Origin: a virus
DNA length: 38,477 nucleotides
IMG/VR virus record: IMGVR_UViG_3300043172_000070
Location: 1-38,477 of that record
Direction: 5' to 3' (one strand)
Part shown: piece by piece, positions 7,056-38,313 of the stretch
Position numbering within the stretch: position 1 is the stretch's first letter
How the letters are laid out: each line of letters opens with the position of its first letter
The notes under the pieces: generated by a model
What the model was told of the DNA's origin: nothing
The model's database searches: none
The model's input: the letters and a program-made list of their open reading frames with translations, nothing else
Program-made: the position numbers and the translations under genes

Positions 7056-8300
7056 ATGGCTAATATTTTCACTAAGGTTATTGATGGTGCTGTTGGGCGT
7101 TACGTTTCAAAGCATTCAATACGCCTAACTTCTCATGATTCAGGGCTACTGCAAATTTTCGGTGACTACTTTAACTACAATGTAACGGGTTATTCACTGA
7201 CTAAATTCATAGACGCATACTCAAGCAATCCATACGTATTCAACATCATTAACAAGATCGCAAAAACAAGCGCATCTATGGATCGTATAGTACATACTAA
7301 GGGCGAGAAAGAGATAGTTAACTCTAAGATACTAGAACTATACACCGAAGAGAAGCGGCAAAAGATCAACGAAAGCCTATTAGCTACTGGTAACGCGTTT
7401 GCATATTTCGTTAAAGGCATTGGTGCAGGTGGTGAGCTTGATGTATGGCATGCTAACCGTGTAGAATTATTCTGTAATACAATAGGAGAGGTTGTACGAT
7501 ACGAGTACACTACACCGTGGAACTCAATAACAAAGATTCAAGGTGACGAACTAAAGAACGTTAGACACATAAAGACTAGCAACATAGTAAGCTGTGAGGG
7601 AACAAGCGTTAAATGGGGGTTAAGTCCTTTACAGGCTGCATGGGTAGTAGTAGAGGCATCCAACGAGAAGTTTAGAGCAGAAGCGGCTATATTTAAAAAC
7701 AGAGGTGCAATAGGGTTGTTAAGTAACGGATCAGACATACCAATGACAGGTACTGAGCGCGACAAGCAACAGGCTTTACTTGATGGTCAGATAGGGGGTG
7801 CGGATAACTTTAACGGTGTTAACATATCAACGGCAAATCTAAAGTTCGTACAGCTAGGAATGAGTCCAACAGACTTAAAACTACTGGAGGGGCTTGTATC
7901 ATCGCTTAGAATACTATGCAGCGTATACGGCATTAGTTCCGTTCTATTCAATGACAACGACAATAGCACGTATAACAACATCTCAGAGGCTAAAACAAGT
8001 GCTTACAATGAGGTGTATATCCCATTAGGAAAGAAGGTAGATAAGGAAATTAGCGAATGGTTAAGTGAGTTACTTAATATAGACGAAACCATAGTAGTAA
8101 ATCTAAACTCTATTGATGAGATTAAGTTAAGTACTAATGATGTAGCACAAGCACTTAGCAACTTAGACCCAAGGGCGCAAGAGCGAGTACTTGAGGTTAT
8201 GACAGAAGAAGAGGCACGTAACCTTATAGAGTTGGGGGCGCTTACTGCTGGGGCTAAACTACTAGGTAAAAAAACTGATAGTAATGAAGGACAAGCGTAA
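7056..8300 (+). CDS. Portal protein (HK97-like)
   Basis: Dodecameric ring protein at the DNA-entry vertex. The protein has the typical N-terminal SNPYVFNIINKIAKTSASM segment (about residues 57-75), the central GLSPLQAAW motif (about 188-196) followed by a helix and the GAIGLLSNGS loop, and the C-terminal crown region. The 414-aa length fits the family. Gene order terminase - portal - protease - capsid supports it strongly. Confidence 0.92.
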   Translation: MANIFTKVIDGAVGRYVSKHSIRLTSHDSGLLQIFGDYFNYNVTGYSLTKFIDAYSSNPYVFNIINKIAKTSASMDRIVHTKGEKEIVNSKILELYTEEKRQKINESLLATGNAFAYFVKGIGAGGELDVWHANRVELFCNTIGEVVRYEYTTPWNSITKIQGDELKNVRHIKTSNIVSCEGTSVKWGLSPLQAAWVVVEASNEKFRAEAAIFKNRGAIGLLSNGSDIPMTGTERDKQQALLDGQIGGADNFNGVNISTANLKFVQLGMSPTDLKLLEGLVSSLRILCSVYGISSVLFNDNDNSTYNNISEAKTSAYNEVYIPLGKKVDKEISEWLSELLNIDETIVVNLNSIDEIKLSTNDVAQALSNLDPRAQERVLEVMTEEEARNLIELGALTAGAKLLGKKTDSNEGQA

Positions 8301-19410: not shown

Positions 19411-21619
19411 GGTATATACAGACTTAGAGGGGCGTACTGGTAAATCTATGCAAGGAAACTACATGGATAAATCTATTGTACAGTATGATGTAGAATACGA
19501 TGCTAAGATAGACCTATCTAATTCCGTTTCTGTTCTTAAGCAGGGTGCTAAGTTTATATTAACCAAGGGTACATGGTTTGATAAAATAGGAGCTTTTAAA
19601 GGTGCTAATATTGATTTCAGATTAAGGTTACAAGGCAACGTAATAAGTACTACAATTGATTACGTAGACGGTGCAGAAATGACCCTAATAAATGGCGGTA
19701 ATTCTCAGGATGGTCCAAAATTAGTTGGGTTCTTCCAAGTAACGGACGCTCCCGAACTATTCGAGGTGGACTTTAACCTAGTACAGAATTCGATTTCTGT
19801 AGGTTCTAGATTTAGTCTTATTGACGGTGAAACACAAAGGTTTAGCGTAGTACTTGCAAACGCTTTAACTATTGGCGGTGGTATAGATAACTTTATCCAA
19901 CTAGGTAAGAAATCAGGAGGCTCAGAAATTACATCTAACATTGATAGAATTGCAGATAGTGGAGCAGGAAACCAACGCTATACGCTACTAATCAACTATA
20001 AAAACCCGCTATTATTCGACGAAGAGCTATATAAAGCCGATGACTGTATAGGAGATTATGCGCGTATACGAGTAACGGCACAACGAGGGAATGATAATGT
20101 ATTTGTTGATTTCGACACGAAGAATATTGGAGACACGGGGTATGAAGATGAAGCGTTAAACGGTGGGGCTGCTGAGTATGTATTTAATACTTTGGTTTGG
20201 ACAGATGGAGCGGCTAACGTTATGGAGGCAATGGACTACTCACAACCTAGTAACTTTGCTATAAACATTACGGGGACATTTACGGCTGCTGAAAAATACG
20301 GTGTTAAGCTATTTAGAATCCCACAAGACGAATCAGAATATAAGAATAAGGCGTTAAACTTGGAGCGCAATTTGTCTTTATGTATGAATGATGTGTTAAT
20401 TGCTGACGGTGTACCTACAGCAGTAGCGGGAGATACGAACGCAGACGGTGCAGCATTCGACATTAGCGGGTTCACAGTAACCGACAACGGTACAGACGTA
20501 GATGTAGTGGGGTTAATTACACCTAACGCGGCTATGATAACGCTACTAGGCGACCGTGGAGAGACAGATAAGGACTATAAGTTACTAATTGTAATAGATG
20601 ACACAACGAAGGCTTACAGGGATGCTAATACGGTAAACGTACTATGTGACTCAAATAACGCGGTAAAGAATAAAATTCCTTTAGGGACTTGGGGCGGTGT
20701 TGCTGACTTTAACATGATCGGTTCTGATGGTGTTGTGCTTACAGGTACACCCGCGCTACTAATTGAGTCCGACAACAGGATGAACGTAACATTTACACTA
20801 CCAAAGAATACAAACTTTGTTAACCCTTGGTTGTCAATGACAGGGCAAATAGTCGCTACACGTATAAGCACAGGTGAACGATTTATATACAAGTCAGAAG
20901 AGTATGTTTACGACATATCACAACTATCAGCAGAACGACCTAGTAAGATATTACTTATTGACTACGAGCAAACTAAGGGTAGAAAACTACCAGCAGCAAG
21001 TGAATTTAATGATGTAACATTTGAATTGAATCCTTTCCTAGATACTGGGACGGACTTCGGGGTTCAGCTTAACTATTCTTTCCAAGTTGGTTATCAAGAT
21101 TGGATTGAAGTACCAGAGATTAGTAATTACTTCGAGGGTGAAAAGAACAATAATTGGTACAACATTAGTAACGATCCTGATTGGGGGCTTTCGTTTGAAT
21201 TTGTTTTAGAGCATGAAGACGGCACGTATACCAATAGTAAAGACTTTACCGTAACGAACTACGGGGCTTGGACGGGTGCAGTAGTAAAGACTTATGTAGA
21301 TGAAGATTCTCAAGTAGTTACACGCCCTTTAGCAAATCAAACTAACACCATTACAGCGGTTGCAACTGGTTTAAATCCATTTACAGGAAACGAGTACGCT
21401 TCAATAAGTGTTAGAGATAAAGACGGGGTAACACTAGGTCAAATAGCAACAGACATAGACCCGTTGATTAGCGGAAATCCTTTACAACCAATAGCAGGAG
21501 ATACAAGATTAAAAATAACGGTGCTATCTAATGTGGCAACGCTAGTATGTTTAATAGATACCAAGCTAATAGACGTAAAGAAGTACACAATAGTAATAGA
21601 TTTTAATGCGGACGTATAA
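19388..21619 (+). CDS. Large tail/baseplate structural protein (743 aa)
   Basis: Beta-rich and Asn/Asp/Gly-rich throughout, the composition of extracellular tail proteins, with several probable Ig- or jelly-roll-like repeats. There is no catalytic motif I recognise. It is followed with a 1-nt overlap by the lectin-like adhesin gene, so it probably forms the adhesin-bearing hub or part of the fibre. Function inferred from size, order and composition. Confidence 0.65.
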   Translation: MGLRVINKVYTDLEGRTGKSMQGNYMDKSIVQYDVEYDAKIDLSNSVSVLKQGAKFILTKGTWFDKIGAFKGANIDFRLRLQGNVISTTIDYVDGAEMTLINGGNSQDGPKLVGFFQVTDAPELFEVDFNLVQNSISVGSRFSLIDGETQRFSVVLANALTIGGGIDNFIQLGKKSGGSEITSNIDRIADSGAGNQRYTLLINYKNPLLFDEELYKADDCIGDYARIRVTAQRGNDNVFVDFDTKNIGDTGYEDEALNGGAAEYVFNTLVWTDGAANVMEAMDYSQPSNFAINITGTFTAAEKYGVKLFRIPQDESEYKNKALNLERNLSLCMNDVLIADGVPTAVAGDTNADGAAFDISGFTVTDNGTDVDVVGLITPNAAMITLLGDRGETDKDYKLLIVIDDTTKAYRDANTVNVLCDSNNAVKNKIPLGTWGGVADFNMIGSDGVVLTGTPALLIESDNRMNVTFTLPKNTNFVNPWLSMTGQIVATRISTGERFIYKSEEYVYDISQLSAERPSKILLIDYEQTKGRKLPAASEFNDVTFELNPFLDTGTDFGVQLNYSFQVGYQDWIEVPEISNYFEGEKNNNWYNISNDPDWGLSFEFVLEHEDGTYTNSKDFTVTNYGAWTGAVVKTYVDEDSQVVTRPLANQTNTITAVATGLNPFTGNEYASISVRDKDGVTLGQIATDIDPLISGNPLQPIAGDTRLKITVLSNVATLVCLIDTKLIDVKKYTIVIDFNADV

Positions 21620-30718: not shown

Positions 30719-32083
30719 ATGGAATATTCAGATTTTTTGGAATCTAAAAAACACACGTTAGGAGAATTCGGTTTTGAACCTAACTTTATACCTGACATGG
30801 CTTTCGACTTTCAACGAGAGATTATTACAAGGGCTGTAAAAAAAGGTAGGATAGCAGTATTTGCCGATACTGGATTAGGTAAAACTTTAATTCAATTATC
30901 AATAGCTCAAAACATAGTTAACCATACTAATAAAAGAGTTCTTATTCTTACTCCTTTGGCTGTTGCTTTTCAGTTTATTATTGAGGCAAAAAAGTTAGGT
31001 ATAGAAGATATTGAATATTCTAAGGATGGTGTATTTACAAAAAGTATAGTGATATGTAATTACGAACGGTTGCACTATTTCAATAGTTCAGATTTTGAAG
31101 GGGTTGTATTAGATGAGAGTTCTATACTTAAAAACTTTGACGGTAAAATAAAAGGTCAAATAACTAGTTTTGTAAAGAAGTTACCTTATAGATTCTTATC
31201 AACTGCTACACCTAGTCCAAATGATTTCATAGAATTAGGCACAAGCTCAGAAGCACTAGGGTATATGGGTTATATGGATATGCTAGGAAAGTTCTTTAAG
31301 AACAACCAAAACAGCGTAGACGGGTCGAATAGAAATATAGGCGAGAAGTTCTACCTAAAACCTCACGCTGAAAAGAGTTTCTTTGCTTGGGTTAATCAAT
31401 GGTCTATTATGATTAAGATGCCTAGCGACTTAGGATTTTCTAATGATCGTTATATCTTGCCTGAGTTGATTATTAATAAGCACACGGTAAAGAATGAATC
31501 TCTAATTGACGTTGAGGGTCAGGTTCAAATGTTTAACATAGTAGCTAAAAGTTTTCACGAAATAAGACACGAACAGCGAGAAACAATAACCGAACGATGT
31601 GAAAAGGCTGTTGAATTAGCAAAGGGCAAAACGTCTGTTTATTGGTGTAATTTGAACGATGAGAGTAAACTACTAAAACAGTTAGACCCCGAAGCAATTG
31701 AAATTATAGGTAGTATGTCATTAGAGAAAAAAGAAGATATACTAATGAGGTTTGCTAATGGTGAAATTAAGCGTATAATAACAAAAGCTAAGATTACTGG
31801 TATGGGCTTAAATTGGCAACATTGTCAGCATTCAGTATTCTTCCCTACTTATTCATACGAACAGTACTACCAAGCTATAAGAAGGTTTTGGAGGTTTGGA
31901 CAAAAGCATAACGTAACTATTGATATGGTTATTAGTGATGGACAAACTAGGGTACTAGAAGCATTACAACAGAAAACAAAAAAAGCGATTGAATTATACA
32001 CAAGTTTAACAGAAAATGTTAACTCAGTATTTGAGGATAACAAAAAAGAGTTTAATACAGAAATAGTAACACCTAAATTTTAA
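30719..32083 (+). CDS. SNF2/DEAD-like SF2 helicase
   Basis: 454 aa, both RecA-like lobes present. Walker A ADTGLGKT (49-56), Walker B-like LDES (131-134), motif III STATP (161-165), and motif VI QAIRRFWRFGQ (about 387-397). An ATP-driven DNA translocase or helicase. It lies 5 nt before a DNA methyltransferase gene; such pairs occur in restriction-modification-like and defence-like contexts and in many phages, but no nuclease gene is next to them here. The pair is probably an early-expressed DNA processing or modification unit. Confidence 0.88.
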   Translation: MEYSDFLESKKHTLGEFGFEPNFIPDMAFDFQREIITRAVKKGRIAVFADTGLGKTLIQLSIAQNIVNHTNKRVLILTPLAVAFQFIIEAKKLGIEDIEYSKDGVFTKSIVICNYERLHYFNSSDFEGVVLDESSILKNFDGKIKGQITSFVKKLPYRFLSTATPSPNDFIELGTSSEALGYMGYMDMLGKFFKNNQNSVDGSNRNIGEKFYLKPHAEKSFFAWVNQWSIMIKMPSDLGFSNDRYILPELIINKHTVKNESLIDVEGQVQMFNIVAKSFHEIRHEQRETITERCEKAVELAKGKTSVYWCNLNDESKLLKQLDPEAIEIIGSMSLEKKEDILMRFANGEIKRIITKAKITGMGLNWQHCQHSVFFPTYSYEQYYQAIRRFWRFGQKHNVTIDMVISDGQTRVLEALQQKTKKAIELYTSLTENVNSVFEDNKKEFNTEIVTPKF

Positions 32084-32088
32084 TTGAT

Positions 32089-33105
32089 ATGAAAGTAAAA
32101 GAACAAATTATTACAGATCAGTATGCAATCTATAACGGGGATTGTATGCACGTTCTACCAACTTTAGAAGATGAAAGTATTGATCTTAGCGTATATTCTC
32201 CACCATTTGCAGGACTGTATAATTATTCAAGTAGTGAGAATGATTTTAGTAACTGCGAAAGCAAAGAACAATTCTTAGAACAATACGAGTTTTTAATTAA
32301 AGAAATGGCACGAGTTACAAAGGCTGGAAGGATTACGGCTGTACATTGTACGGATGTATTTGATAATACGTGTAGGCTTTGGGATTTCCCTAATGAGATT
32401 ATTCGACTACATACAAAGTACGGGTTTGAATACCGTAACCGTATTACTATTTGGAAAGAGCCTTTAAAGGTTCGTATGCGTACGATGGTGCAAAGTCTTA
32501 TGCACAAGTTTATTGTAGAAGATAGTACAAAGTGTTTTACTGCTATGCCCGATTACGTTTTGATATTTACTAAGAAAGGAGAAAACCAAGTACCAGTAAC
32601 ACACCCCAACGGACTAAAAAGATACTTTGGTGAAACGCCTATTTTACCTAATATTTTACGTGCATGGAATAACGCTAATAAATCGAATGTAAACGAGGAT
32701 CAATTATGGGAACACTTAAACACTAAATTTGTGGATCATGTAGACCCTAAAAGTAATAAATTGAGTCACTACATTTGGCAACGTTACGCATCTAGTGTAT
32801 GGGATGACATTAGAATAGATAATGTTTTACCGTTTAGAGATTCAAGAGAAGAGGACGACGAGAAGCACGTACACCCGTTGCAATTGGATGTAATTGATAG
32901 AATTATAGAATTGTACTCAAATGAAGGTGAAGTAGTTCTTACTCCATTTATGGGCGTAGGTAGTGAGGTTTACAGTCCAGTGTCATTAGGGCGTAAAGCT
33001 ATTGGTATTGAGTTAAAGGATAGCTATTTCAAACAGGCTAAGATTAATCTTACAATGACTGAAAAGAGATTTAAAGATGAAGCTAAACAAGAAAAACTCT
33101 TTTAG
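32089..33105 (+). CDS. DNA N6-adenine or N4-cytosine methyltransferase
   Basis: 338 aa. The catalytic motif IV is SPPF (37-40), a variant of the usual (D/N/S)PP(Y/F/W). The AdoMet-binding motif I is at the C-terminal side, FMGVGS (287-292), followed by GRKAIGIEL. Order IV then I places it in the beta group. The protein may protect phage DNA from host restriction or mark it. It follows the helicase gene by 5 nt and precedes a small gene by 2 nt, so all are co-transcribed. Target sequence unknown. Confidence 0.9.
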   Translation: MKVKEQIITDQYAIYNGDCMHVLPTLEDESIDLSVYSPPFAGLYNYSSSENDFSNCESKEQFLEQYEFLIKEMARVTKAGRITAVHCTDVFDNTCRLWDFPNEIIRLHTKYGFEYRNRITIWKEPLKVRMRTMVQSLMHKFIVEDSTKCFTAMPDYVLIFTKKGENQVPVTHPNGLKRYFGETPILPNILRAWNNANKSNVNEDQLWEHLNTKFVDHVDPKSNKLSHYIWQRYASSVWDDIRIDNVLPFRDSREEDDEKHVHPLQLDVIDRIIELYSNEGEVVLTPFMGVGSEVYSPVSLGRKAIGIELKDSYFKQAKINLTMTEKRFKDEAKQEKLF

Positions 33106-33847: not shown

Positions 33848-34528
33848 ATGTCACACAATCAGGGGTGGATTAGCATTTCACGAGAATTAAAAAATCATTG
33901 GGTATATTCCAAACCAGAAGCTTTAAGAGCATGGTTAACTATATTGTTTTGCGCCAACTTTAAGGACGGTAAAATGATACTAGGTAAAAAGACCTACACA
34001 GTAAAACGTGGTCAATCTTCAATGTCATTAAGATCATGGGCAAATGAGTTAAATATGGGTGTAAAAGCCGTTGTAACCATTTTTGACTTGCTTGAAAGTG
34101 ACAACATGATTACGCGCAAAACTATTGGAAAAGGGAAACAAAGCACAACCCTTATTACCATTACGAATTACGACAATTACCAGACCCTTCAAGAAACGCT
34201 AGAGAAACGCAACGGCATCGATAGGGAAACGCTAGGGCAACGCGAAGGAAACGCGAAGGGCATACAATATAACAATGGTAATAACGATAACAATGAAAAC
34301 AATGAAAACAAAAAGCCCGCGTATGAAGATTTTCTAAAATACGCTCTCGAGCATAAGCCAAAGGTTAAAAAGACAGAGGTTGAATTTAAATACAAGGCTT
34401 GGGAAGCAAGTGGATGGTGTACGAATAGGAAAGGTAAACCCCAACCGATACTAAACTGGAAAACAACATTGTTAAACTCATTGAGGTACATGGGTGAAAC
34501 TGGTAGTGAAATCAAAATCGTATCGTAA
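33848..34528 (+). CDS. Replication initiator (lambda O/DnaD-like)
   Basis: 226 aa. N-terminal winged-helix region (about 1-105; AWLTILFCANFKDGK, then the SLRSWANELNMGVKAVVTI helix-turn-helix), a repetitive and Asn-rich linker (about 112-155), and a C-terminal domain (about 156-226) resembling replisome organisers that recruit helicase. The linker DNA holds six tandem 11-bp repeats and an A-rich tract, the layout of an origin inside the initiator gene as in lambda O. Its stop overlaps the primase-helicase ATG by 1 nt (TAATG). Confidence 0.82.
   Translation: MSHNQGWISISRELKNHWVYSKPEALRAWLTILFCANFKDGKMILGKKTYTVKRGQSSMSLRSWANELNMGVKAVVTIFDLLESDNMITRKTIGKGKQSTTLITITNYDNYQTLQETLEKRNGIDRETLGQREGNAKGIQYNNGNNDNNENNENKKPAYEDFLKYALEHKPKVKKTEVEFKYKAWEASGWCTNRKGKPQPILNWKTTLLNSLRYMGETGSEIKIVS
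34193..34258 (+). repeat. Six tandem 11-bp iterons, probable replication origin
   Basis: Six contiguous 11-bp units: GAAACGCTAGA, GAAACGCAACG, GCATCGATAGG, GAAACGCTAGG, GCAACGCGAAG and GAAACGCGAAG. AACGC occurs every 11 bp except in the degenerate third unit. Units 1-3 and 4-6 form a 33-bp (11-codon) near-duplication. Spacing at one helical turn fits cooperative initiator binding. Confidence 0.78.
34259..34316 (+). other. A-rich tract next to the iterons, possible DNA-unwinding element
   Basis: About 58 bp, very A-rich and strand-asymmetric, with repeated AACAATG and AAAACAATG units, right after the iterons. It encodes the Asn-rich linker and could be the site of initial melting. Confidence 0.65.
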
Positions 34529-36315
34529 TGGCTGATTTTATAGATTGGGATTCGATAATAGTCCGTGGTTCTGAAAAGGGGGTAAAAAAGACAACATGCC
34601 CGTTATGCTCAGAGTCAAGAAAGAAGAAAAAAGACCCTTGCCTGTACGTCAACTTCGAAAGTGGCGTAGCGAAATGCTATAATTGTGACGCTCTAAGTTT
34701 TAAAGATTCAAATACAGACTTTGTAAAAAGCACGTATAAAGCCCCACCGCAACAATGGCAGAACTACACCAAGTTATCAGATCAGATGGTAAATTGGATT
34801 CGTGACACACGCGGAATACGACAAGAAACGCTCATACACTTTGGGATAACAGAAGAAAAACAGTATCAACCAGCAAAGCAAAAGGAATTAAATAATATTG
34901 TTTTCAACTATTTCGAGGGTGACAAGTTGGTTAATAAAAAATACCGATCAGGAGCAAAGGATTTCACGCAGACAACAGGGGCAAAGCGAATATTCTACAA
35001 TATCAACTCGGTAATAGGTGCAAATAAATGCTGGATTGTAGAGGGTGAATTTGACGTATTGGCAATGTACGAAGCGGGGGTAAAAGAAGTGATAAGCCTA
35101 CCGAATGGCGCGAATGATAACGATGAATTTTGGAAGAACTCAGAGAAGTATTTAAAAGATATTGAGCATTTTGTAATCGCGGTTGATAATGACGAAAAAG
35201 GGAACATTGTAAAAGATAAGATTGCACAGAGGTTAGGGAGGTATCGCTGTAGTTACATTGAATGGCAGTTTAAAGACGCTAACGGGGATTTAACCGAGGG
35301 AGTGATACATGAGTCTATAAAACAAATTAAACGCTTTCCTGTGGGTGGTACGTTCAAAGTTGAGGACTTACTCGAGGGGGTTTATGATTTGCATGATAAC
35401 GGATTACCTGAAACAATCTACCCAAAGCACGAAAGTTTTGGAAACGTAAAGGATGTATTCTCAATAATGCGCGGTCAAGTAACGGTAATAACTGGTATTC
35501 CTTCACACGGTAAAAGTTCATTTTCTGAGTGGCACGTCCTGAATTTGATAAACGACTACACTATGAAGGCTTCATTTTTCAGTCCTGAGCATTCACCAAT
35601 GGCACTGCATCAAACGAATTTCATACAAAAAGCGATAGGTAAACCGTTTTGGAAGTCTCACGATGGTATTGACAGGATCACAAAAGAAGATATTGAACGC
35701 TACAAAGAATGGGCTAACGAAAAGCTATATCTAACGGGAGCGGAAAAGGGTAAACCAGCAGATTGGGATTGGTTGCTCGAGAAGTTCAAAGAACAAATGT
35801 ACAGTTTCGGTATAGATTTATTTGTTATTGACGCGTTTAACAAGGTGATGCTCGACAAGGGTATAAACAAAAAGGACGCGATTGATGATGTAATGACTCG
35901 AGTAACGTCATTCGCTATAGAAAACAATGTGCATATATTCTTAGTCGCTCACCCAACAAAGATGCGTAAGAATGACGACGGCAAATATGAAGCGCCAACG
36001 CTGTACGATGTATCGGGGTCTGCTGACTTTAGAAACCAAACGCACAACGGATATTGCATATACAGGTATTTTGCGAATGATAACGAAGATGGTTTTACAA
36101 CATTCATAAACCTAAAGACAAAGTTTAGTTTTCAAGGTGAAATTGGATCGAGTATAAGTTACGATTACCATTTACCTACTGGTAGATATTACCTAAAGGG
36201 AACTATGCCGCCTTTGTTTGATATGACCGAACACTCAAAACAAAAAGAACCTGTCCAATCGGCATTAATACCAAACGACGACTTTGAAACACCAGTAGAA
36301 GATTGTCCATTTTAA
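34528..36315 (+). CDS. T7 gp4-like primase-helicase
   Basis: 595 aa. Zinc-binding primase N terminus with C24, C27, C50 and C53. Toprim primase core: VEGEFDVLAM (171-180) and AVDNDEKG (218-225). DnaB/RecA-type helicase: Walker A GIPSHGKSS (323-331), Walker B FVIDAFN (432-438) and LVAHPTK (472-478). It both synthesises primers and unwinds DNA at the fork. The C terminus ends acidic and hydrophobic in DDFETPVEDCPF, like the tail of SSB proteins. No phage DNA polymerase is present, so the host polymerase is probably used. Starts inside the upstream stop. Confidence 0.93.
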   Translation: MADFIDWDSIIVRGSEKGVKKTTCPLCSESRKKKKDPCLYVNFESGVAKCYNCDALSFKDSNTDFVKSTYKAPPQQWQNYTKLSDQMVNWIRDTRGIRQETLIHFGITEEKQYQPAKQKELNNIVFNYFEGDKLVNKKYRSGAKDFTQTTGAKRIFYNINSVIGANKCWIVEGEFDVLAMYEAGVKEVISLPNGANDNDEFWKNSEKYLKDIEHFVIAVDNDEKGNIVKDKIAQRLGRYRCSYIEWQFKDANGDLTEGVIHESIKQIKRFPVGGTFKVEDLLEGVYDLHDNGLPETIYPKHESFGNVKDVFSIMRGQVTVITGIPSHGKSSFSEWHVLNLINDYTMKASFFSPEHSPMALHQTNFIQKAIGKPFWKSHDGIDRITKEDIERYKEWANEKLYLTGAEKGKPADWDWLLEKFKEQMYSFGIDLFVIDAFNKVMLDKGINKKDAIDDVMTRVTSFAIENNVHIFLVAHPTKMRKNDDGKYEAPTLYDVSGSADFRNQTHNGYCIYRYFANDNEDGFTTFINLKTKFSFQGEIGSSISYDYHLPTGRYYLKGTMPPLFDMTEHSKQKEPVQSALIPNDDFETPVEDCPF

Positions 36316-37686: not shown

Positions 37687-38313
37687 ATGGGACACAAAAA
37701 AGACGAGTTCATGGAAGAACTAGAAAAAAGAAAGGACGAAGAACAAAACGAGATCGAGGACGTAATACCACATAACCAAGATTTAACAGGATTAAACACC
37801 CCTTTATCAATCGAGGACATAGACTTTCGTATCCAATCAATAAACAAGGGTGGATATGCTACTATACTAGCTTACAAAGACGCTAGGGTAGACATGAATC
37901 GTTTAGACGATGTTGTTGGTAGTATGTACTGGAAGCGTGAACTACTAGATAATAATACACGGTGTAGAGTATCTATTTACAATAAAGACCTAAAAGAATG
38001 GGTAGCAAAAGAGGACGTAGGTACACCAAGCGCAACGGAAAAGGAAAAGGGTTTAGCTTCTGACAGTTTCAAAAGGGCTTGTTTCAACTGGGGTATAGGT
38101 CGTGAATTGTACGATTATCCAGTAATACAAATCAAGCTTATCGCTAACGAATTCAAGATAGATCAAGGTAGGGCGAAGCAAACCTATGAACTAAAGCTAA
38201 AGGAATGGATTTGGTTTTCACAATTCACAAACGGCAAACTAACATATTTGGCGTGTAAAGACCAAAGCGGTACTAAACGCTTCTCATTTGGACAATACAT
38301 AAAATCAGTGTAA
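37687..38313 (+). CDS. Rad52-like single-strand annealing protein
   Basis: 208 aa. Matches the Rad52/Rad22-type annealing proteins: YATILAYKDARVDMNRLDDV (about residues 57-76), RCRVSIYNKDLKEWV (about 93-107), then ATEKEKGLASDSFKRACFNW (about 116-135) with the GIGRELYDYP motif. Such proteins anneal complementary DNA strands and support phage recombination and concatemer formation. The N-terminal about 35 residues are acidic and low-complexity. Its stop overlaps the next ATG (TAATG). Confidence 0.82.
   Translation: MGHKKDEFMEELEKRKDEEQNEIEDVIPHNQDLTGLNTPLSIEDIDFRIQSINKGGYATILAYKDARVDMNRLDDVVGSMYWKRELLDNNTRCRVSIYNKDLKEWVAKEDVGTPSATEKEKGLASDSFKRACFNWGIGRELYDYPVIQIKLIANEFKIDQGRAKQTYELKLKEWIWFSQFTNGKLTYLACKDQSGTKRFSFGQYIKSV

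Follow-up and report, generated by a model that had tools for sequence, protein, structure and literature searches.

The initiator gene of the virus represented by IMG/VR record IMGVR_UViG_3300043172_000070 very probably contains the phage replication origin, at positions 34193-34316 of the 38,477-nucleotide stretch that we analyzed (the window). This segment, in which six tandem 11-bp iterons are followed by an A-rich tract, falls in the disordered-linker region of the gene. We favor this reading because the array is unique in the 38 kb and unexplained by the protein sequence; because the 11-bp period is family-wide, the iterons track the N-domain and frame-shifted repeat DNA is kept in the relative L121; because relatives share a motif, CAAACAAKAATGAT, with a fixed AAC codon, and a search with the motif alone recovers the same architecture; and because the tract is the gene's least stable 50 bp and published analogues exist.

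Both parts of the arrangement proposed in the initial annotation, six tandem 11-bp iterons inside the initiator gene and then an A-rich tract, are real (34193-34258 and 34265-34316, respectively; Table 1). The spacing of one helical turn was likewise correct, every unit lying exactly 11 bp from the next, and iterons 3 and 5 are the weakest matches to the consensus GAAACGCTAGG. At a lag of 11 the array scores 40 matches in 55 comparisons, the strongest 11-bp periodicity of the window, with the next best non-overlapping 66-bp stretch reaching 29. For periods of 8 to 40, no other 55-comparison stretch in the whole record reaches 38, and no second array of this kind was found in the 38-kb record. 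Simply counting occurrences of GAAACGCNANG, allowing 2 mismatches, is uninformative (102 against 88 expected), since only the tandem register is unusual. The array DNA is of above-average stability.

The periodicity of the array DNA is not a consequence of the encoded protein, since synonymous recoding never attains it: in 20,000 trials on the array's 22 residues, drawing on the phage's own codon usage, lag-11 matches averaged 22.7 with a maximum of 36, and none (0/20,000) equaled the array. An 11-residue protein repeat, also claimed previously, does exist in two copies because three 11-bp units (33 bp) must yield such a peptide repeat, but it is weak, with ETLEKRNGIDR and ETLGQREGNAK identical at 5 of 11 positions.

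Comparison with L121, the closest relative among the matches listed (N-domain 75% identical to that of the window), separates DNA from protein further. L121 has one unit fewer than the window (five against six), leaving 55 and 66 nt, respectively, between the shared GAAACGCTAGA and GGCATACAAT. The 11-bp difference shifts the reading frame, which an indel of 1 nt in the A-rich tract sets right again: up to the next anchor the tract measures 32 nt in L121 and 33 nt in the window. Past the missing unit the repeat DNA encodes NAKGIQYNNGN in the window and KHEGHTIEEGN in L121, yet the DNA is similar. As the shared repeat DNA is translated in different frames, the alignment indicates that DNA, and not protein, is conserved in the iterons and the GGCATACAAT box. 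The sequence GGCATACAA is common to L122 and L125, where its frame differs from that of the window. A repeat in the protein as the source of the DNA pattern was ruled out by the synonymous recoding and the L121 frame shift.

Relatives retrieved by tblastn came from Staphylococcus (PVL orf46, phi575 and StB27), Enterococcus (EH-TP1), Anoxybacillus (A403) and Vibrio (1.064.O). In all six the N-domain ends in NYxxYQ, and tandem repeats with a period of 11 or 22/23 follow immediately; the unit sequences vary, and 9-nt repeats such as AATAATGAT come next. In Paenibacillus Jacopo, a weak match, tandem repeats were not found. For a wider survey of linkers, IMG/VR was scanned with N-domain motifs only, which avoids linker bias, and 47 distinct linkers, including that of the window, were listed. 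Over the range 5 to 30, the top period was 11 in 31 of them, 22 in 5, 12 in 8, 23 in 2 and 25 in 1, so that 11 or 22 ranked first in 36 of the 47 distinct linkers among the matches listed. Such a family-wide period speaks for a function of the DNA because 11 is no codon multiple. The period-12 cases fall mostly within one subgroup; L123, L128 and L134-L139 have mainly 12-bp spacing (GAAACGCAAGATACTACGCAAGATACT...), and spacing can therefore change while the ACGCAAG core stays. The array lies in mid-gene, some 350 bp past the start codon, and its location is shared by almost all relatives examined. The expectation that the iterons would be conserved in relatives despite protein divergence was thus borne out in a stronger form: unit sequence changes along with the N-domain, while the 11-bp period and the position stay.

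This covariation was quantified in 71 distinct initiators with partial Mantel tests on iteron k-mer, N-domain and C-domain similarity. Iteron k-mers correlated with the N-domain when the C-domain was controlled (r 0.35, p 0.001), and also when DNA composition was controlled in addition (r 0.34, p 0.001); the correlation with the C-domain was r 0.05 (p 0.13). N- and C-domain similarity were nearly independent of each other (r 0.05). The simplest reading of these similarities would be a single cassette made of N-domain and iterons, joined to C-domains that are exchanged. A DnaB_2 (PF07261) C-domain was present in 4 of 8 compared phrog_2514 members and absent from the window protein. A crude regular expression gave a hint that C-domain type may go with the type of gene downstream (odds ratio 6.25, p 0.019). 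The N-domain was present in 3 of 395 Bacteroidia genomes in a prophage survey, a plasmid search returned 12 plasmids, each below 60% identity, and a search with the L028 N-domain gave no match besides L028.

The A-rich tract is probably the unwinding element, as predicted from its composition (A31 T8 C7 G6 at 34265-34316) and stability: the 50 bp starting at 34262 are the least stable of the gene and lie at the 97th percentile across the record. It had been described as strand-asymmetric and A-rich. The A-richness holds; since the codons for polar linker residues contain few T, coding accounts for at least part of the asymmetry.

Behind the repeats, relatives carry a DNA motif that is nearly invariant, CAAACAAKAATGAT. 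The first asparagine codon of the tract is AAC in 53 of 53 distinct relatives, which, by N-domain, form between 4 and 13 clusters according to the threshold chosen and hence are not 53 independent cases, against 37% AAC across those genes. At the third tract position, where it is asparagine, the codon is AAT in 47 of 47. These fixed codons are not due to shared descent alone, since conserved N-domain asparagine codons in the same genes vary (AAT 34 and AAC 16 at one, AAT 40 and AAC 6 at another). L014-L107, which were found via the tract peptide pattern, were excluded from claims on tract frequency; the codon-choice counts are unaffected by this selection, as the peptide pattern is degenerate at the DNA level. 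A search of IMG/VR with the 21-nt motif CAAACAAKAATGATAAKAATG alone gave at least 80 loci, 79 with enough upstream sequence. Among these 79 listed loci, 76 have the motif in frame within initiator-like open reading frames (ORFs), and the top upstream period is 11 or 22 in 69. In L325 the motif is in another frame and the ORF ends inside it (REHKQ-stop), because of a sequencing error, a frameshift or a broken initiator gene. L300 and L345 carry the 21-nt motif, by chance or another cause, inside an unrelated 838-amino-acid ORF without 11-bp repeats.

We tentatively raise the idea, with rather low confidence, that the tract is a sequence-specific single-strand element, near-constant in Firmicutes, Bacteroidota and Vibrio phages whose iterons have diverged, and comparable to the pair formed by DnaA-trio and DnaD elements. 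Its coding strand consists largely of A-centered triplets, the pattern used for finding DnaA-trios (PMC8287927), and its opposite strand is accordingly full of 5'-TnnT-3' steps; such steps form the core of the element that Bacillus subtilis DnaD binds, as single strand, at the chromosome origin (PMC10201434). Polar linker codons alone would produce much of the triplet pattern; the fixed synonymous choices are not accounted for by coding. If the idea were true, phage initiators would use a two-part opening, with double-strand boxes and single-strand trios, within coding sequence, and the near-fixed motif raises the question of a single-strand opening code common to phages and chromosomes.

The initiator matched phrog_2514 ('DnaD-like helicase loader') over residues 4-160 with an expectation value (E) of 4.3e-26 and 92.8 bits. 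A Pfam scan gave no significant match, including to Phage_rep_O, and neither did a PDB sequence search. An AlphaFold2 model built from 29 relatives (mean predicted local distance difference test score, pLDDT, 80) has a folded N-domain, a disordered linker (pLDDT <50) and a small C-domain; array and tract code for the end of the last N-domain helix plus the linker. A PDB fold search with the N-domain returned generic winged helices, including MarR and ArsR relatives, none of them significant (E >=0.011). Rank 10 was held by 4pql, which we take to be a RepA_N domain. The start codon of the next gene, encoding a primase-helicase, overlaps the initiator stop, and its product is the probable partner loaded at the origin. 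Helicase, methyltransferase and Rad52-type annealing genes near the initiator form a phage replication and recombination module (Table 1), and the methyltransferase gene possibly points to modification of the phage DNA. An imperfect 21-bp tandem repeat of 2.5 copies lies at 144-195, close to the record's left end.

Table 1. Features of the proposed origin and of nearby genes, numbered from the first nucleotide of the window.
Feature	Position	Strand	Remarks
Initiator gene, 226 amino acids	33848-34528	+	N-domain ~7-120, disordered linker ~123-152, C-domain ~153-215
Six tandem iterons, no gaps	34193-34258	+	11-bp units, inside initiator gene
Iteron 1, GAAACGCTAGA	34193-34203	+	10/11 positions as in GAAACGCTAGG
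Iteron 2, GAAACGCAACG	34204-34214	+	9/11 positions as in GAAACGCTAGG
Iteron 3, GCATCGATAGG (degenerate)	34215-34225	+	8/11 positions as in GAAACGCTAGG
Iteron 4, GAAACGCTAGG (consensus)	34226-34236	+	11/11 positions
Iteron 5, GCAACGCGAAG	34237-34247	+	8/11 positions as in GAAACGCTAGG
Iteron 6, GAAACGCGAAG	34248-34258	+	9/11 positions as in GAAACGCTAGG
GGCATACAAT box	34259-34268	+	DNA common to window, L121 (other frame there) and L124
A-rich tract of low predicted stability, containing 9-nt units AACAATGAA	34262-34316	+	Degenerate match to family motif CAAACAAKAATGAT
TOPRIM primase / DnaB-type helicase gene	34528-36315	+	PF13155 E 4e-10; DnaB_C E 8e-6; phrog_239 E 1e-87
DNA helicase gene	30719-32083		Upstream of methyltransferase gene
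DNA methyltransferase gene, N6/N4 type	32089-33105		Follows helicase gene
Rad52/Erf-type single-strand annealing protein gene	37687-38313		Close to replication genes

We infer initiator binding, melting, helicase loading and a replication start at the array and tract. Several initiators would bind the six iterons through their winged-helix N-domains, and the spacing of about one helical turn would align them along the same side of the DNA. Once assembled, this complex would open the weak A-rich tract beside the array; the C-domain would recruit the product of the neighboring primase-helicase gene, and theta replication would start there.

Several observations weigh against an origin at this place. 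The literature yielded no binding or replication data on this phage, nor on any initiator of the phrog_2514 type that has 11-bp repeats, and the fold search yielded generic winged helices only (E >=0.011). The window's tract matches the family motif poorly: with a position weight matrix of CAAACAAKAATGAT, the record's best site, at 34262, reaches 10.4, below the median of 41.2 for members. Physical linkage may partly account for the co-inheritance of N-domain and iterons. Finally, GC skew, which had been expected to reach its minimum near 34200, does not indicate 34193-34316; it rises steadily, with a detrended minimum at 7409 and maximum at 20737, although skew is uninformative here because all large genes lie on one strand. 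The only DnaA box in the record is one weak nine-mer at 34720. No terminal repeats indicating a circular genome were found in the record, which may be incomplete.

Three other explanations of the array were weighed. It could be an operator through which the initiator or another phage regulator governs how its own gene or the primase-helicase gene is transcribed, with replication starting elsewhere. Winged-helix proteins are often repressors, as the MarR and ArsR proteins among the fold relatives recall, and autoregulation is frequent among iteron initiators. We nevertheless consider an operator improbable, given that the array sits in mid-gene, so far past the start codon in nearly every relative examined, usually adjoins the A-rich tract and follows a plan equal to that of characterized origins. 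Binding of the initiator to the array for another step, such as a rolling-circle switch or a termination site, with the main origin elsewhere, appears more improbable still. It has a precedent in the second origin of SPP1, a phage in which G38P binds at oriL, within gene 38, and again at oriR, some 13 kb from it (PMC6316719); in the 38-kb record, on the other hand, the single array is the sole candidate of its kind.

Least credible of all is that the DNA repeats are a by-product, without DNA function, of a repetitive low-complexity linker. The linker is indeed predicted to be disordered and is rich in polar residues, but a period that is no multiple of 3, the outcome of the recoding trials, the DNA conserved in L121 despite a frame-shifting one-unit difference and the synonymous codon fixed at the first tract asparagine of relatives all stand against it.

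An origin within the initiator gene is an already known plan, with lambda, SPP1, 80alpha, TP901-1 and RepA_N plasmids as examples; the family-wide 11-bp rule and the motif are apparently undescribed, as no paper describing either was found in the open-access literature, the scope of our search, with subscription literature outside it. The rule is simple, an 11-bp period after NYxxYQ and then CAAACAAKAATGAT, and gives a way to find candidate origins in numerous phages that have not been cultured. It also yields predictions on the pairing of protein domains with the DNA they read, and a cassette of N-domain and iterons that is swapped separately from the C-domain would amount to a natural experiment on initiator specificity. 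The 11-bp signal is maintained in coding DNA despite being read in all three frames.

Among known systems, the phrog_2514 phages (PVL orf46, phi575, StB27, EH-TP1 and Vibrio 1.064.O) are the closest, with a homologous N-domain, an array of 11-bp or 22/23-bp repeats after NYxxYQ and an A-rich tract. Their unit sequences differ, and EH-TP1, A403 and Jacopo have a DnaC-like loader or a DnaB helicase as the next gene, unlike the primase-helicase of the window. Two further primase-helicase loci carry repeats. In Cellulophaga phage phi19:1, gp031, of the unrelated family phrog_29280, occupies the initiator position just upstream of a window-like primase-helicase and contains about four copies of the 11-bp tandem repeat AAACCGAAACA (L008, 2087-2140), possibly by convergence on the same plan. 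Flavobacterium phage sniff9-2 (L007), whose primase-helicase is 58% identical, has a different gene with AGTGTA repeats in the initiator position and a AACAAGTACCC repeat at the end of another upstream gene; these sites (1797-1837 and 2669-2717) are candidates for unrelated putative origins.

The initial annotation had called the origin lambda-O-like, which fits its plan and not its descent, phrog_391 reaching only E 0.0026 against 4.3e-26 for phrog_2514. In lambda, too, iterons lie mid-gene between a DNA-binding N-domain and a helicase-side C-domain and are followed by an A-rich tract. The iterons annotated in the lambda O gene are four 18-bp units with starts 20-24 bp apart, in contrast to the contiguous units of the window, which are shorter, as had been noted (11 against 18 bp). 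An identity of the window protein as lambda O was rejected on the absence of a significant Pfam match, the E of 0.0026 to the O-like phrog_391 and the 11-bp rather than 18-bp units. Residues 96-297 of lambda O match the phrog_2514 profile (E 2.8e-37); the C-terminal two thirds of O thus belong to a domain type that circulates in the phrog_2514 group.

For TP901-1 and 80alpha the best profiles are phrog_186 and phrog_428, and their repeat periods are near 15/30, unlike that of the window. Since these phages have other N-domains, period 11 seems, from such comparisons, to mark the present N-domain family. The repeats of TP901-1 (ORF13) are reportedly essential, according to Ostergaard in 2001. 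In 80alpha, an ORF20 deletion is not complementable in trans (PMC5499656), and binding of G38P to oriL within SPP1 gene 38 has been demonstrated (PMC6316719). A Pfam scan up to E 1 gave no match to the RepA_N domain (PF06970) in the window protein. The RepA_N plasmids nevertheless follow the same plan, with different boxes and in a plasmid rather than a phage: in pSK41, Rep boxes central in the rep gene are bound by a winged-helix N-domain, the ori encodes the linker and the C-domain is DnaD-like, and in pPR9 the N-domain and the ori have been replaced as one unit (PMC5703833).
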